Shown piece by piece: positions 2,496-7,289 of a stretch of DNA of 10,918 nt (positions are counted from its first letter, which is position 1; every line of letters starts with the position of its first letter). A program made the translations under genes and the position numbers. This DNA is from an uncultured Gemmatimonadota bacterium. Lineage in GTDB: Bacteria > Gemmatimonadota > Gemmatimonadetes > Gemmatimonadales > GWC2-71-9. The stretch spans positions 1 through 10,918 of the forward strand of contig CAJVYZ010000037.1 of assembly GCA_913009915.1 (NCBI GenBank), given 5' to 3'. The notes under the pieces are model-generated. The model was not told the origin of the DNA, searched no databases, and saw only the letters and a program-made list of their open reading frames with translations.

Positions 2496-2595
2496 GTCCG
2501 AGCCGCCTACGTATGGAGCCACTGCTCCGTTTCACCACCCGAGGGTAGCAGGATCACGTGCGAGGATGTTTGAGAGGCACTCTCTGCTCTCCTAC

Positions 2596-2626
2596 CCTGC
2601 GCCCTGCGCACTGTGACCTGCGCACT
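2596..2626. repeat. CCTGCGC short direct repeats in the divergent spacer
   Basis: CCTGCGC occurs at 2596-2602, immediately again at 2603-2609, and once more at 2617-2623. The last two copies extend to CCTGCGCACT and are spaced 14 bp apart. They sit between the divergently transcribed kinase (-) and cytochrome c (+) genes. Just downstream, 2632-2647 can fold as a hairpin with a 6-bp stem, TGGGGC-CGAA-GCCCCA, without a T-tract. The region could be a regulator-binding array or merely slippage-derived repeats; nothing in the sequence decides this. Confidence 0.5.
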
Positions 2627-2758
2627 CCCCCTGGGGCCGAAGCCCCACCGGAGGATGAGCCCGGAGAGCCGGACCCGCAAGCGCCAGGATCCCACGGCAG
2701 GAACCCGCCAGGCGGTGGGGGACTTCTTGTAGAAAACCTCCAAGGAAGGGCACACTCC

Positions 2759-3124
2759 ATGGTACAGAGAATCATGCTGGTTCTGGCGGGCTTGATCCTG
2801 GGCGCGGCGCTGATTTGGTTGCTGGGCGACCGGGGACCGGCATACCAGGTGGACGCGGCCGCGGCCGAGCGGGGGCAGGTATTTTATCGGGTGTGCGCCG
2901 CGTGTCACGGCGAAGATGGGGCCGGTAATCCCGACACCCAGGCTCCACGGCTGGCAGGACAGCACCCCTGGTATCTCGAACGGCAACTGCGGAACTTCAG
3001 GGCGGGCATTCGGGGAGCGGACACCGCCGACATCAACGGTTCCATGATGCGGCCCATGGCCGACGGTCTGCCCGACGACCAGGCGGTGACCGATGTGGTG
3101 GCCTACATCGGCACCTTGCGATAA
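2759..3124 (+). CDS. Membrane-anchored class I cytochrome c (mono-haem)
   Basis: A 121-residue protein with an uncleaved-looking N-terminal membrane helix (about residues 5-22, IMLVLAGLILGAALIWLL) followed by one cytochrome c domain. The haem-binding motif is C46-A-A-C49-H50, followed by GEDGAGN. The sixth-ligand methionine is probably one of M96, M97 or M100 in 'GSMMRPMADGL', and the closing helix 'DVVAYIGTL' is typical of cytochrome c553/c4-type domains. Haem is attached outside the cytoplasmic membrane, where the protein would shuttle electrons near the membrane. The ATG at 2759 has AAGGAAGG 9 nt upstream. The reading frame is open further upstream to 2558, but that extension has no signal and runs through repeat-rich spacer. 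It is transcribed divergently from the kinase and towards the lipoprotein cytochrome. The redox partner is unknown. Confidence 0.9.
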   Translation: MVQRIMLVLAGLILGAALIWLLGDRGPAYQVDAAAAERGQVFYRVCAACHGEDGAGNPDTQAPRLAGQHPWYLERQLRNFRAGIRGADTADINGSMMRPMADGLPDDQAVTDVVAYIGTLR

Positions 3125-3125
3125 A

Positions 3126-3166
3126 CGGCCCGGTGGGCCGGCAACGGGGGGCCCGGGCGGACCCCC
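3126..3166. terminator. GC-rich hairpins between convergent cytochrome genes
   Basis: Immediately after the TAA at 3122-3124 is a perfect 6-bp hairpin: CGGCCC (3126-3131), loop GGT, GGGCCG (3135-3140). A second potential stem pairs GGGGG (3146-3150) with CCCCC (3162-3166) around a GCCCGGGC core. Two convergent genes end on either side, so these structures could terminate both transcripts. There is no good T-tract on either strand, which lowers confidence in intrinsic termination. Confidence 0.45.
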
Positions 3167-3181
3167 TTGCGTTCCCAGTGA

Positions 3182-3607
3182 CTACTTGGCGGCGAAGTTC
3201 CCTTGCTCGATCTCGACATAGGCGGTCAGGGCAGCCAGCTCTTGTGAATCCCACGCGAGCGGTTCCCCCTTCATGGGCACGATCATGCAGAACTGCACCA
3301 TCTGCTCGCCGTTGATCGACTCGAGATCCGACATGCTCTTGGCCATGGCGACCCGGTGCGGATACGGCTGCTTGAAGGACTCCTTGAACTGAGCGCCACC
3401 GAGGTGACAACTGGCGCATGAAACCCCCGCGGTGCCCAGGCTGGTGTCGTTCCACAGCTCCTCGCCGGCCGCGGCCAACTCGACCGGGTCGCCCTCGAAG
3501 GCCGCCACGCCGGCCGGACGCTGCACCAGGGCCGGATCGACACTGCCGCAACCGGCCAGCGTGAGGGTGACGGTGAGCATAGCGCCAAACACCAGGTGCC
3601 TCTTCAT
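3182..3607 (-). CDS. Lipoprotein c-type cytochrome (mono-haem)
   Basis: A 141-residue exported lipoprotein. The signal peptide ends in a lipobox L17-A-G-C20, so C20 would be lipidated. The haem motif is C64-A-S-C67-H68, with candidate axial methionines in 'MVQFCMIVPMKGEPLAWDS' (M103, M108, M112) and an extra cysteine, C107. The segments 'ELWNDTSLGTAGVSCASCH', 'PYPHRVAMAK' and 'WDSQELAALTAYV' match a recognisable family of single-domain bacterial cytochromes c of unsettled function. The start is supported by GGAGG 6 nt upstream of the ATG. It faces the other cytochrome gene across 57 bp of hairpin-forming sequence. Its upstream region holds the G-rich and 18-bp repeat tract described separately. 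Electron transport at the membrane surface is established for cytochromes of this type; the specific partner is not visible. Confidence 0.9.
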   Translation of the reverse strand: MKRHLVFGAMLTVTLTLAGCGSVDPALVQRPAGVAAFEGDPVELAAAGEELWNDTSLGTAGVSCASCHLGGAQFKESFKQPYPHRVAMAKSMSDLESINGEQMVQFCMIVPMKGEPLAWDSQELAALTAYVEIEQGNFAAK

Positions 3608-3717: not shown

Positions 3718-3821
3718 AAAAAATGGAGTGGAGTTGGCCATGTTGGCACTGAGCCCGCGCTTGGCCCGGGACCTTTTTGGGGCACCGAGTTGGCCACCGA
3801 CGATTACAGCAGAGAGCGACG

Positions 3822-4703
3822 ATGACCGTTCGAGTAGATCGCAGTAATATGAAGATCAGCAAGCGCGGGTTCCAGTTCCAACCGTTCCGCCCGACGGGCG
3901 ACGGTGGTCCTCTCGCCTCCGCGGGGCTGCCGGACGACGAGGAACTTCTCGTTTTCGGCCGGAAAGATCAACACCGGGCCCTTGTCCTGCGGCAGATGGT
4001 GTACCACCACATCGCCCAGGGAGAACTGGCCGGAGAGCCCTATCTGGTCACCTTCTGAGGCCCGTGCAACAGCGGGGTCGGTCTGACCCCGATCGTCAAC
4101 GGCTCGATCCACCACTTCGGCGTCGTCGGCCTCTCCAACGGGCTGGCGGTCATGGCAGATGAAGAAACCCGCAGCCTGTGGGATCACATCACCGGCGAGG
4201 CCTTCGAGGGACCGTTGACGGGGGAGCGGCTCGACTGGTGGCCCATCAGGCTGACCACGACTGGCGCCGCCCTGGCCGAGTGGCCCTCGCTGGCGCTGCT
4301 GGTTTCCGGCTATCGCTCGGTCGCGCAAATGTTCATGGGGCGGGTGAAGCCAAAGAAGATCCACACCAAGGGCTGGCTGCCCCCTGGATTCCGTGCCACC
4401 ATGAGCGCGCCGGTGGATCCCCGACTGGGCGAGCTGGCCCAGGGATTGGGAGTCATCGTGGACGACGAAGCCCGGTTCTACCCCATGGACCGGATCCCGG
4501 CAGAGGGGCTCGAGGATATGTGGGATGGGCGGATCATGCGCATCGTGCGCGGCGCCCGGGATGGGGTGCCGGCCGCCACCTGGGCGGACGGACCGGACGG
4601 CGATGTCCCCATGCAGCTTCTTTCGAGGTGGTACGGATTTGCCTTTACCTATCCGGGGTGCACAATTGTACCGGAGGAATGGATCGTAGGCCGAGGACCC
4701 TAG
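3822..4703 (+). CDS. DUF3179-family protein, probable selenoprotein (UGA at codon 79 read as Sec)
   Basis: Read through the TGA at 4056-4058, this is one 293-residue protein covering the whole DUF3179 (PF11376) pattern: 'DDEELLVFG', a His-pair helix (H62-H63), 'GEPYLVTF', then U79-G-P-C82-NSGVG, 'FGVVGLSNGLAVM', 'ETRSLWDHITGEAFEGPL' (about 116-132) and a long C-terminal part. In this family the position before xxCNSG is a cysteine forming a CxxC; here the codon is TGA, giving UxxC. The two halves share one frame and no other stop interrupts 293 codons. The ORF downstream of the stop opens in mid-domain (M111) with no ribosome binding site, so it is not an independent gene. A hairpin downstream fits a bacterial SECIS. 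ATG 3822 has AGAGAG 5 nt upstream; ATG 3849 is an alternative. No signal peptide is seen. The biochemical role of DUF3179 is unknown to me; a redox role is inferred from UxxC. The alternative is a recent nonsense mutation or a sequencing error. Confidence 0.85.
4059..4102 (+). promoter_or_regulatory. Candidate bacterial SECIS element downstream of the in-frame UGA
   Basis: CGGGGTC (4073-4079) pairs perfectly with GACCCCG (4085-4091) around the 5-nt loop GGTCT (4080-4084). The loop begins 22 nt after the UGA, inside the roughly 16-37 nt window known for bacterial SECIS elements, and it starts with G. The E. coli fdhF SECIS has the same GGUCU apical loop, in which the G and U are contacted by SelB. 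A possible lower stem pairs CCGT (4062-4065) with ACGG (4099-4102) across a symmetric internal loop. The function would be to recruit SelB-GTP-Sec-tRNA so that UGA is decoded as selenocysteine. Confidence 0.75.
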
Positions 4704-4718
4704 TTAAGGGGCAGAACC

Positions 4719-5189
4719 ATGCAATCCACAGCCGAAACGGTCGCCGAGTATCTCGCCGGTCTCCCCCAGGACCGCCGGCAGGCCATCGAACGAGTCCGCC
4801 GGACCATTCTCGACCACCTCCCCCAGGGGTACCAAGAGGCCATGAACTGGGGAATGATCAGCTACCAGATTCCACTAGACCGCTACCCCGACAGCTACAA
4901 CGGGCAACCGCTGATGTACGCCGCGCTGGCATCACAAAAGAACCACATGGCTGTGTACTTGTTCGGCATTTACAGTTCTGATGAGGCTCGCCAGCAATTC
5001 GAAGCCGCCTACAAGGCCACCGGCAAGCGTTACGAGGTGGGCAAGTCGTGCGTCCGTTTCAAGAAACTGGACGACCTCCCCCTCGACCTGATCGGCGACA
5101 CCATCGCCTCGATGGAGGTGGAGGAGTTTATCGCGCTCACCGAAGCGGCCCACTCGGGACGCAAGAGCGGCAAGGGAAAACGGTCCTGA
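4719..5189 (+). CDS. DUF1801 domain protein (YdhG-like)
   Basis: A 156-residue soluble protein recognisable as the DUF1801 family (PF08818): the N-terminal helix 'VAEYLAGLPQDRRQAIERVR', then 'GYQEAMNWGMISYQIP', 'KNHMAVYLFGIY' and 'GKSCVRFKKLDDLPLDLIGD'. Family members are small single-domain cytoplasmic proteins related in fold to the YdhG/iron-chaperone frataxin-like group. No biochemical role is established for this subtype. The start has AAGGGG 7 nt upstream. It lies 15 nt after the DUF3179 stop, so the two are probably co-transcribed. A Lys/Ser/Gly-rich tail (GRKSGKGKRS) ends the protein. The TGA stop is followed one base later by the ATG of the next gene, pointing to an operon. Confidence 0.85.
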   Translation: MQSTAETVAEYLAGLPQDRRQAIERVRRTILDHLPQGYQEAMNWGMISYQIPLDRYPDSYNGQPLMYAALASQKNHMAVYLFGIYSSDEARQQFEAAYKATGKRYEVGKSCVRFKKLDDLPLDLIGDTIASMEVEEFIALTEAAHSGRKSGKGKRS

Positions 5190-5190
5190 C

Positions 5191-5610
5191 ATGCGCACCC
5201 TGATTCCCATTCTGGGGTTGATACTCGCCGGCGCCGTAGTCGGGCGGCCCGCCCTGGCCCAGGAGCCGGCGGACAGCGTGGCCCACCGCGTCGTCTTCGA
5301 AGGCACCTTCCGCGGTGTGGCCGGACACAAGGCCGGCGGTGGCTACCAGGTACTCCAGCGCGAGGGGCGCTGGGTAGTACGCATGACGGAGAGCTTCGCC
5401 TCGGAAAAGGTGCCCGACGGACATGTCTACTTGAGTAACCATGCCGAATCACTCGGCCGCGACGCCTACCACGTCAACCGGCTCATCCACCGAAACGGCG
5501 AGCAGGAGTACCTGCTGCCGGAAGACATCGACCCGACGGTCTTCAAGTTCCTGTTGGTGTGGTGCGTGAGGTTCGATGTGGGCGTCGCGGCCGGGCCGTT
5601 GGAAACCTAG
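5191..5610 (+). CDS. Exported DM13-domain protein
   Basis: A 139-residue protein with a signal peptide (about residues 1-23, cleavage after A21-L-A23) and a single DM13 domain (PF10517). The segments 'GTFRGVAGHKAGGGYQVL', 'VPDGHVYLSNH', 'QEYLLPEDIDP' and 'FKFLLVWCVRFDVGVAAGPL' follow the DM13 pattern, including the invariant cysteine (C125) in the V-W-C-x-x-F motif. DM13 domains are predicted to act in electron transfer or redox chemistry through that cysteine, but direct evidence is sparse. The ATG starts 1 nt after the DUF1801 stop, with an AAGGG-containing stretch inside the end of that gene. The product would act in the periplasm. Its operon position next to a candidate selenoprotein fits a redox theme, which is inference. 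Confidence 0.85.
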   Translation: MRTLIPILGLILAGAVVGRPALAQEPADSVAHRVVFEGTFRGVAGHKAGGGYQVLQREGRWVVRMTESFASEKVPDGHVYLSNHAESLGRDAYHVNRLIHRNGEQEYLLPEDIDPTVFKFLLVWCVRFDVGVAAGPLET

Positions 5611-5643
5611 GGCTCTTCTTCCACCCCGACGACGAGCGTCTTA

Positions 5644-6165
5644 GTGCCCGATCTGCGATTCCCCATTGGCAAGTTCATCCTCCCAGACGATCCCGGCACC
5701 GTGGACCGCCAGCGGGCCGTCGACGGCATCGCCGAGGCACCGGCAGCTCTTCGTTTGGCCGTGGCGGGCCTGGATGAGGGCCAACTCGATACGCCCTATC
5801 GTCCAGACGGATGGACCGTGCGCCAGGTAGTGCACCATCTGCCGGACAGCCATCTCAACAGTTACACGCGCCTGAAGTTGGCGCTGACCGAGGACGTTCC
5901 GACCATTCGCACCTACGAGGAGGCGCGTTGGGCGCAGCTGGCGGACTACGCCTCGCCGGTCAGCGTGTCGCTCGACCTGCTCGACGCACTCCATGTCCGT
6001 TGGGTCCTCCTGTTCCGACAGCTCGACGATCACCAATGGACCCGCCGGTTCCGCCACCCCGATCTCGGTGAGATGCGCGTGGATCAACTCGCGGCGCTGT
6101 ACTACTGGCACGGCCGTCACCATATCGCCCACGTTACCTCCTTGCGTCAACGGTCCGGGTGGTAG
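5644..6165 (+). CDS. YfiT/BstA-like DinB-fold metal-dependent protein (putative bacillithiol transferase family)
   Basis: A 173-residue protein with clear YfiT/BstA signatures: 'DLRFPIGKF' at the start, 'GQLDTPYRPDGWTVRQVVHHLPDSHLNSY' in the middle (described in parts: D49-TPYR, G56-WTVRQ, H64-H65, D68) and 'YYWHGRHHIAH' near the end. The metal triad would be H64/H65 with H156 and H160, as in B. subtilis YfiT. Family members have a four-helix DinB fold and add a low-molecular-weight thiol to electrophiles, or are annotated as metal-dependent hydrolases. Whether this organism makes bacillithiol is unknown, so the thiol substrate is open. The start is GTG 5644 with only a weak GACGAG upstream; no nearby ATG fits the family start better. 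It follows the DM13 gene by 33 nt in the same direction. Confidence 0.88.
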   Translation: MPDLRFPIGKFILPDDPGTVDRQRAVDGIAEAPAALRLAVAGLDEGQLDTPYRPDGWTVRQVVHHLPDSHLNSYTRLKLALTEDVPTIRTYEEARWAQLADYASPVSVSLDLLDALHVRWVLLFRQLDDHQWTRRFRHPDLGEMRVDQLAALYYWHGRHHIAHVTSLRQRSGW

Positions 6166-6224
6166 CCCACTCGGGCCCCCGGCGGGACCGGAGCGCCCAC
6201 CTTCAGAATCAGGGAGAGCCCGAT

Positions 6225-6701
6225 TTGTCAGTGCCCGACACCACGTTAGAAGCCTGGCGAACCAACAACCGCATCAACCTGTTTCTGATCGACCGAATCA
6301 GCGCGCCCGGCATGCGCTGCACCTTGTCCCAGCGCGGGGGGCGCGGCGTGGCCGGGCAGTTCGCCCACATGCACAACAACCGCGTGTGGCAACTGGAGAA
6401 GCGGGCCAAGGACCTGGCGAAGGGACTGGAGATCTTCCCCCCCAAGACCCAGCCCACCAAAGCCGCTCTGAAGAAGGCGTTCATCGCCTCGGGTAACGCC
6501 ATCGAGACGTTCCTGACCGACCTCACCGCGAGGACGCCCAAGCGTCGCGGCTTCAAGAAAGGCGTCCCGTCGACGCTGGCCTATTTCGTGGCCCACGAGA
6601 GTCATCACCGCGGCATCATCCTGTTGACGCTCAAGGAGTGCGGCCACAACCTGGACAAGGACGCTCGCTACGCCATCTGGGGCATGTGGGACAAGACCTA
6701 G
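6225..6701 (+). CDS. DinB family protein
   Basis: A second, distinct DinB-fold protein, about 158 residues. Recognisable parts are 'TNNRINLFLIDRI', 'GGRGVAGQFAHMHNNRVW' with candidate metal histidines H48/H50, and 'AYFVAHESHHRGIILLTLK', the C-terminal H-x-x-x-H-type metal site. The closing segment ends in 'YAIWGMWDKT'. Such proteins are predicted to bind a divalent metal and act on thiols or small molecules; no specific reaction is assigned. I chose TTG 6225 because AGGGAG lies 8 nt upstream; GTG 6231 is the alternative. A longer reading from 6159 would overlap the BstA-like gene and adds a non-family N-terminus. The TAG abuts the ribosome binding site of the next gene, so the genes are probably co-transcribed. 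Confidence 0.85.
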   Translation: MSVPDTTLEAWRTNNRINLFLIDRISAPGMRCTLSQRGGRGVAGQFAHMHNNRVWQLEKRAKDLAKGLEIFPPKTQPTKAALKKAFIASGNAIETFLTDLTARTPKRRGFKKGVPSTLAYFVAHESHHRGIILLTLKECGHNLDKDARYAIWGMWDKT

Positions 6702-6713
6702 AGGAGGTGACCG

Positions 6714-7289
6714 ATGCGATGCTCGAGTTCCCCACTGCGCTCTCCTGATCGGACGCTGTTGGCTTGCGGACTGGCGGCCATGCTCGTGCTGTCGGCGTCC
6801 GGCCTGAAGGCACAAGACCGCCCGAAGCCGATGCCACCGAGGGACAGCATCGTGTCCGCTGCCCGGGAGATCATGGCCGCCGCACGCTACGGGGCGTTGA
6901 TCACGGTCGACTCTGCCGGCCAGCCGCGGGCGCGGCTGATGGACCCGTTCCCGCCCGAGGCTGACATGACCATATGGCTGGCCACCAACCCGAAGAGCCG
7001 CAAGGTGGGGCACCTCCGGGCCAACCCGCGCGCCACGCTGTACTATTTCGACCCCGGCAGCCTCTCCTATGTAACGCTGACGGGCGTCGCCCGTCTGGTG
7101 GACGACCCGGCCGAAAAGGCTCGCCGGTGGAAGGAGGGGTGGGAAATGTTCTGGCCCGACCGGGACGAATCGTATCTGCTCATCGAAGTGACGCCGGCCC
7201 GGCTCGAGGTCGTCAGCCTCAAGCACGGCCTGACCGGCGACCCTGTCACCTGGACGCCGGACGGGGTGACCCTCGGTGGTGAACCGTAG
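6714..7289 (+). CDS. Exported pyridoxamine 5'-phosphate oxidase-like (general stress protein 26-type) split-barrel protein
   Basis: A 191-residue protein. An N-terminal hydrophobic segment (about 14-33, ending SGLKAQ) looks like a signal peptide or anchor, which is unusual for this normally cytoplasmic fold. The rest matches the PNPOx-like/general stress protein 26 split barrel: 'AARYGALITVDSAGQPRARL', 'MTIWLATNPKSRKVGHLRAN', 'ATLYYFDPGSLSYVTLTGVA' and 'LLIEVTPARLEVVSLKHGL'. The family binds FMN or a related flavin or cofactor; pyridoxamine oxidase activity should not be assumed. Translation should be strong: AGGAGGTGA, a near-perfect Shine-Dalgarno sequence, ends 3 nt before the ATG, directly after the previous stop codon. 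It is part of the co-directional run. Export of a flavin-type protein would fit an extracytoplasmic redox role, as inference. Confidence 0.85.
   Translation: MRCSSSPLRSPDRTLLACGLAAMLVLSASGLKAQDRPKPMPPRDSIVSAAREIMAAARYGALITVDSAGQPRARLMDPFPPEADMTIWLATNPKSRKVGHLRANPRATLYYFDPGSLSYVTLTGVARLVDDPAEKARRWKEGWEMFWPDRDESYLLIEVTPARLEVVSLKHGLTGDPVTWTPDGVTLGGEP

Follow-up and report, generated by a model that had tools for sequence, protein, structure and literature searches.

A DUF3179 gene with an in-frame TGA, predicted to encode selenocysteine, in an uncultured Gemmatimonadota bacterium

The tables of two reviews, of 2022 and 2026, list a selenoprotein under the entry DUF3179 domain-containing protein, PF11376, UxxC/T (PMC9312934, PMC13188914). 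The 2022 review attributes it to Zhang and Gladyshev (2007), a work that, by its title, deals with the deltaproteobacterial symbiont of Olavius. The gene described here lies in a window of 10,918 nucleotides (the whole stretch of DNA analyzed), which is contig 37 of an assembly of an uncultured Gemmatimonadota bacterium, and it shares with the listed protein both the Pfam family and the UxxC motif. It is a different record from the listed examples (MBW1804167.1 and MDJ0986319.1), comes from Gemmatimonadota, and is leaderless by eye. The preliminary description of the window had taken a selenocysteine (Sec)-containing DUF3179 family to be undescribed, a claim that the two tables contradict. For the breadth of phyla and the adjacent Cys and Sec copies reported below, a limited literature search found no earlier description; within it, the queries for Gemmatimonadota with selenocysteine and for Thermoactinomycetaceae with selenoprotein returned nothing on this gene.

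Two further comparisons are useful. The Cys-type DUF3179 proteins, found in Gemmatimonadota and in other phyla, belong to the same Pfam family and have Cys where the window protein has its predicted Sec; unlike the window, most of those examined lack a matching hairpin. Set against the rules for bacterial SECIS elements as given in the 2026 review (PMC13188914), the hairpin of the window is within the limits for the size of the loop, for G at its first and second positions, for the 21-nt spacing, and for energy, but it differs from known elements in matching no Rfam SECIS model. The gene and its parts are as follows.

3822 to 4703, plus strand: predicted Sec-DUF3179 gene, 293 codons on readthrough and then a TAG stop (4701 to 4703); its ATG at 3822 is kept in the same-genus copy.
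4056 to 4058, plus strand: in-frame TGA, predicted Sec codon 79, first position of UxxC; of the 75 named loci that could be aligned here, 67 share the TGA.
4065 to 4067, plus strand: TGC, Cys82, second position of UxxC, invariant in a 45-row alignment (A4).
4074 to 4090, plus strand: SECIS-like hairpin with arms 4074 to 4079 and 4085 to 4090, apical loop GGUCU (4080 to 4084), and 21 nt from UGA to loop.
4152 to 4703, plus strand: apparent second ORF of 183 aa, best interpreted as the 3′ portion of the gene at 3822 to 4703, with low dN/dS in codons 111 to 285 and 80 to 285.

Codon 79, counted from the ATG at 3822, is the sole interruption of this frame. In the list of ORFs the first one starts earlier, at a TTG at 3777, and the second starts 31 codons past the TGA. 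The readthrough product of 293 residues contains VTF-U-GPCNSGVG, and its U79 and C82 occupy the columns in which DUF3179 homologues have C..C. With a cut-off of 27 bits, the PF11376 profile gives 24.8 bits for residues 1–78 (under the cut-off), 48.2 bits for the 214 residues 3′ of the TGA, and 93.2 bits (E = 2.6e-26) for the whole readthrough protein. The first part-match stops at profile position 64 and the second picks up at 68. The whole protein covers positions 18–205 of the 292 in the profile, and the C-terminal part of PF11376 would be either divergent or absent. No NCBIfam model matched the window protein or two of its relatives at E = 0.01. Thus, the earlier claims of one frame split by a single TGA at codon 79, of 214 intact DUF3179 codons downstream, and of a UGA in place of the first cysteine in the CxxC motif (this one supported by Cys homologues at that column) all stand, and the observation of a TGA-interrupted DUF3179 gene is confirmed.

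The TGA is widely conserved. A genome of the same genus (G001) has TGA at the same codon in a protein 86%–87% identical, along with an additional TGA near the C-terminus. Among the 53 DUF3179 matches listed for a set of 201 genomes (E = 1e-10), 13 carry TGA and none carries TAG or TAA. Because of these matches and of the same-genus copy, the TGA is more than a chance occurrence. A sample of the phylum (395 genomes, E = 1e-20, with at most six candidates scored per genome) lists 77 matches, of which 34 have TGA, one has TAA, and none has TAG; its 31 top-scoring rows (≥172 bits) all have TGA. The TGA is the first position of CxxC in 33 of the 34, the remaining one (L131, G342:C38) being a broken copy with its in-frame TGA elsewhere. 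The conserved TGA is found in 32 distinct Gemmatimonadota sequences. A scan of named genomes, whose loci overlap with the unnamed set, gave 78 loci with TGA (67), Cys (seven), or Ser (one) at the column, or unalignable there (three, including L194, whose Cys codon lies in a different frame). The scan was queried with the portions of 25 Sec members that lie downstream of the TGA. Both search peptides lie 3′ of the TGA, so that the TGA itself was not selected for, although the Sec subfamily was. The alignment of homologues at this column, suggested as a check in the preliminary description, thus comes out in favor of Sec, with 67 TGA and seven Cys among the 75 alignable named loci. The TGA forms span ten named phyla and one unassigned, as labeled in the sequence records (mostly metagenome bins), with 33 in Gemmatimonadota and five in Bacillota. 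Cys82, His63, Asp113, Trp120, His122, Asp199, Arg201, and Trp270 are invariant in alignment A4. The locus with Ser at the Sec column, L202 of Myxococcota, also has Asp at the second Cys, and its protein is probably without a redox motif.

Sequence change was compared between the window gene and the same-genus copy by NG86, a single sequence pair. dN/dS is 0.27 in codons 1–78 and 0.13 in codons 80–285, and such values show purifying selection 3′ of the UGA, as read from this pair. In codons 80–110 the ratio is 0.76, from three changed codons, and dS is 0.04, against 0.62 in codons 111–285. Such a low rate of synonymous change is consistent with an RNA element laid over coding sequence, with the proviso that the quiet stretch exceeds the hairpin and comes from one pair. 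From the TGA to 4152 there are 31 codons, and the same-genus copy is identical at 28 of them.

Taken alone, the hairpin of the window is unremarkable, and a rule-based SECIS test is by itself weak. The window fold is no better than its shuffles (z = −0.60 and −0.19), and our own version of the SECIS rules is passed by 448 of 1678 background codons (27%), all taken from nine further genes in the window, by 64 of 77 Sec sequences, and by seven of 31 Cys sequences. Hence, the hairpin was accepted as real because of the comparison across relatives and not because of the window fold. Among the six inner pairs, five form without exception in the 32 distinct sequences from Gemmatimonadota, and the sixth forms in 31. 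Pair 20–32, which joins two wobble bases, forms in all but two of the 77 distinct Sec sequences (75; shuffle mean 42.0, reached in 0 of 10000) and takes six types among them (GU, GC, AU, CG, UA, and UG); in the Cys sequences it forms in 15 of 31, with a shuffle mean of 16.6. The outer pair 17–35 is not conserved (26/77, shuffle mean 23.0). A separate covariation count used the window and 67 named sequences (66 distinct rows). Paired cells make up 97.0%, double-changed cells number 36 against 8.7 in shuffles, and the covariation score is 0.433 against 0.189, a value reached in 0 of 500 shuffles, relatedness among the sequences inflating all such shuffle statistics. The pairs changed on both sides are four, against 3.1 expected, and this was matched by 81 of the 500 shuffles. 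Helices slid by one to three bases, a control that retains relatedness, pair in only 33%–55% of cells (maximum 55.1%).

Seven Cys copies have a similar peptide motif, and in six of these the helix is impossible, L194, with its frame break right there, being one of the six. The Cys copy of L170 at 2037 still forms the complete hairpin and may represent a recent Sec-to-Cys change. Six of the 77 Sec sequences, all distant, form at most four of the six pairs (three in L025, L026, and L049; four in L203, L206, and L209), and other Sec clades may use a different hairpin. L025, L026, and L049 make up a separate clade of Sec DUF3179 proteins (with ATYUTLCHTG or ATFUTLCHTG) that does not share the hairpin position. 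An Rfam search of 4000–4200 returned no family at the cut-off and no SECIS family among the weak matches. The check for a SECIS element suggested in the preliminary description thus speaks, by covariation, for the hairpin at 4074–4090, which matches no Rfam SECIS model.

The assembly of the window (3.47 Mb in 676 contigs, 76.5% complete) contains selA (519 bits) and selD (349 bits). The latter (L013) terminates at the tip of contig 27, where the Sec/Cys position of SelD is unreadable; the translated tip resembles what we take to be adapter sequence. In this 76.5%-complete assembly selB was not detected, the top match reading as EF-Tu by eye and the others falling below the cut-off, nor was tRNA-Sec, the five tRNA matches being Ser, Leu, Phe, Val, and Ser. 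Querying the assembly with the SelB of the same-genus genome gave no better match and with its tRNA-Sec region none, an empty answer that by itself proves nothing. In the same-genus genome, selA is present, together with a full-length SelB (619 aa) and a tRNA-Sec with anticodon TCA. The two absences are likely due to the incompleteness of the assembly. The Sec machinery that the preliminary description suggested looking for was thus recovered in part, with selA and selD in the genome itself and selA, selB, and tRNA-Sec in the genus, but selB and tRNA-Sec undetected in its own assembly. The condition that would refute the Sec reading according to that description, a genome lacking Sec machinery, therefore applies in part. 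Among the 11 genomes of the 201-genome set that have a TGA-bearing DUF3179 gene, tRNA-Sec is above the cut-off in nine (not in the window genome G000 nor in G189), selA is present in ten (not in G003), and selB in eight (not in G000, G003, and G107). Because the Sec trait is common in this set (tRNA-Sec above the cut-off in 158 and selA in 146 of the 201), its co-occurrence with the TGA-bearing gene is little informative.

We hold with great confidence that the TGA at 4056–4058 is a Sec codon and that 3822–4703 is one DUF3179 selenoprotein gene. An extremely improbable alternative is that the TGA results from a nonsense mutation or from an error of sequencing or assembly in a decaying gene. 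The fragmentation of the assembly into 676 contigs would be compatible with it, as would the broken relative L131 with its misplaced TGA and the one listed match with an in-frame TAA, but the TGA recurs in a separate genome of the genus and, across many phyla, at the identical column, dN/dS is low 3′ of it, and the hairpin covaries, all of which speak against an error or a decaying gene. One could also suppose that two polypeptides are made, with a stop at 4058 and a restart at the ATG that does open a 183-aa ORF at 4152. This is very improbable, as the 31 intervening codons are family sequence, nearly all identical in the same-genus copy, and include the Cys82 invariant in 45 rows. Translation of UGA into some other amino acid (Trp or Gly, for example), through reassignment or suppression, would by itself be compatible with the readthrough frame. 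Yet, the next gene (4719–5189) terminates in TGA, which is therefore also an ordinary stop here, the named homologues without TGA have Cys (7/8) or Ser (1/8) at the column, and the genus has a tRNA-Sec; the probability of this reading is next to negligible. The conserved TGA, the low dN/dS, the covarying hairpin, the family sequence with Cys82, the Cys homologues, the tRNA-Sec of the genus, and the TGA stop led us to reject these three readings (pseudogene, two peptides, and reassigned code).

A rival of another kind accepts the gene as a genuine Sec gene but supposes that the strain has lost selB and selC and no longer makes the full protein. Neither gene was detected, yet selA and selD were, which speaks for such a loss; the limited completeness of the assembly and the presence of both genes in the same-genus genome make it quite improbable. 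Returning to the Sec gene as a working one, we infer that Sec is actually inserted in the strain of the window.

A second gene of the same type is found in the same genome, and Cys and Sec copies stand side by side in cultured bacteria.

Contig 80 of the window assembly (G000), locus L046, 558 to 1463, minus strand: second Sec-DUF3179 gene of the genome, 37%–39% identical, with TGA at the same column.
L169 at 2047 and 2998, L170 at 2037, 2995, and 4062, and L171 at 1987 and 2995: side-by-side Cys and Sec copies in cultured Thermoactinomycetaceae.

By eye, the paralogue L046 and many Gemmatimonadota copies start with a hydrophobic leader that is missing from the window copy. In three of the six Bacillota loci (L169, L170, and L171), a Sec copy has one or two Cys copies immediately upstream of it, and L142 and L189 have a tandem pair of Sec copies. 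Nearly all members of the subfamily to which the window gene belongs are of the Sec type. A quickly built tree (91 rows), supported by SH-aLRT only, requires six Sec/Cys changes, of which at least four are forced by starred branches. It places the window copy and L193 (Gemmatimonadetes bacterium isolate N074bin45) in a starred group of six, together with one Pseudomonadota and three Chloroflexota, and this group is separate from the remaining Gemmatimonadota within the large clade, including the paralogue of the same genome. Acquisition of the window copy by horizontal transfer would be a fair reading of this placement.

No recurrent partner genes were found across the loci, clusters comprising at most five loci once DUF3179 is set aside together with overlapping frames, antisense or shifted. 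Pfam scans of chosen neighbors show genes of electron-transfer type in the window (cytochromes c, DM13, and PNPOx-like), none of them common across loci. Just upstream, at 2558–3607, are a cytochrome c gene (plus strand) and a SoxA/TsdA-type cytochrome c gene (minus strand), the latter with no match on the compared piece of same-genus contig. After the DUF3179 gene, a same-strand run (4719–7289) encodes DUF1801, DM13, two DinB-like proteins, and a pyridoxamine-phosphate-oxidase-like protein.

In the mechanism we propose, UGA 4056–4058 would be decoded as Sec by tRNA-Sec and SelB, the hairpin at 4074–4090 directing the decoding, and the product would have Sec79-Gly-Pro-Cys82 where CxxC is usual. 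From general knowledge of selenoproteins, we take this UxxC pair to suggest a redox enzyme with Sec as the attacking residue. Sec79 would then attack the substrate and Cys82 would resolve the intermediate via a selenenylsulfide. That the window protein is a selenol/thiol oxidoreductase of this kind, with Sec79 attacking and Cys82 resolving, is a prediction to which we give an even chance. A search of the PDB with the family profile found no sequence relative at E = 1.

Automatic annotation readily splits selenoprotein genes or overlooks them. Put together, these data allow a broader but tentative reading, which we consider possible though rather less than probable: a deep, cross-phylum DUF3179 subfamily would be ancestrally and almost obligately Sec, a widespread class of selenoenzymes with repeated Sec-to-Cys changes, in which the short, apparently leaderless form of the window would be cytoplasmic and horizontally acquired and the paralogue of the same genome extracytoplasmic. 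With adjacent Cys and Sec copies in cultured Bacillota, the function of these proteins and the reason for their use of selenium are open to experiment.
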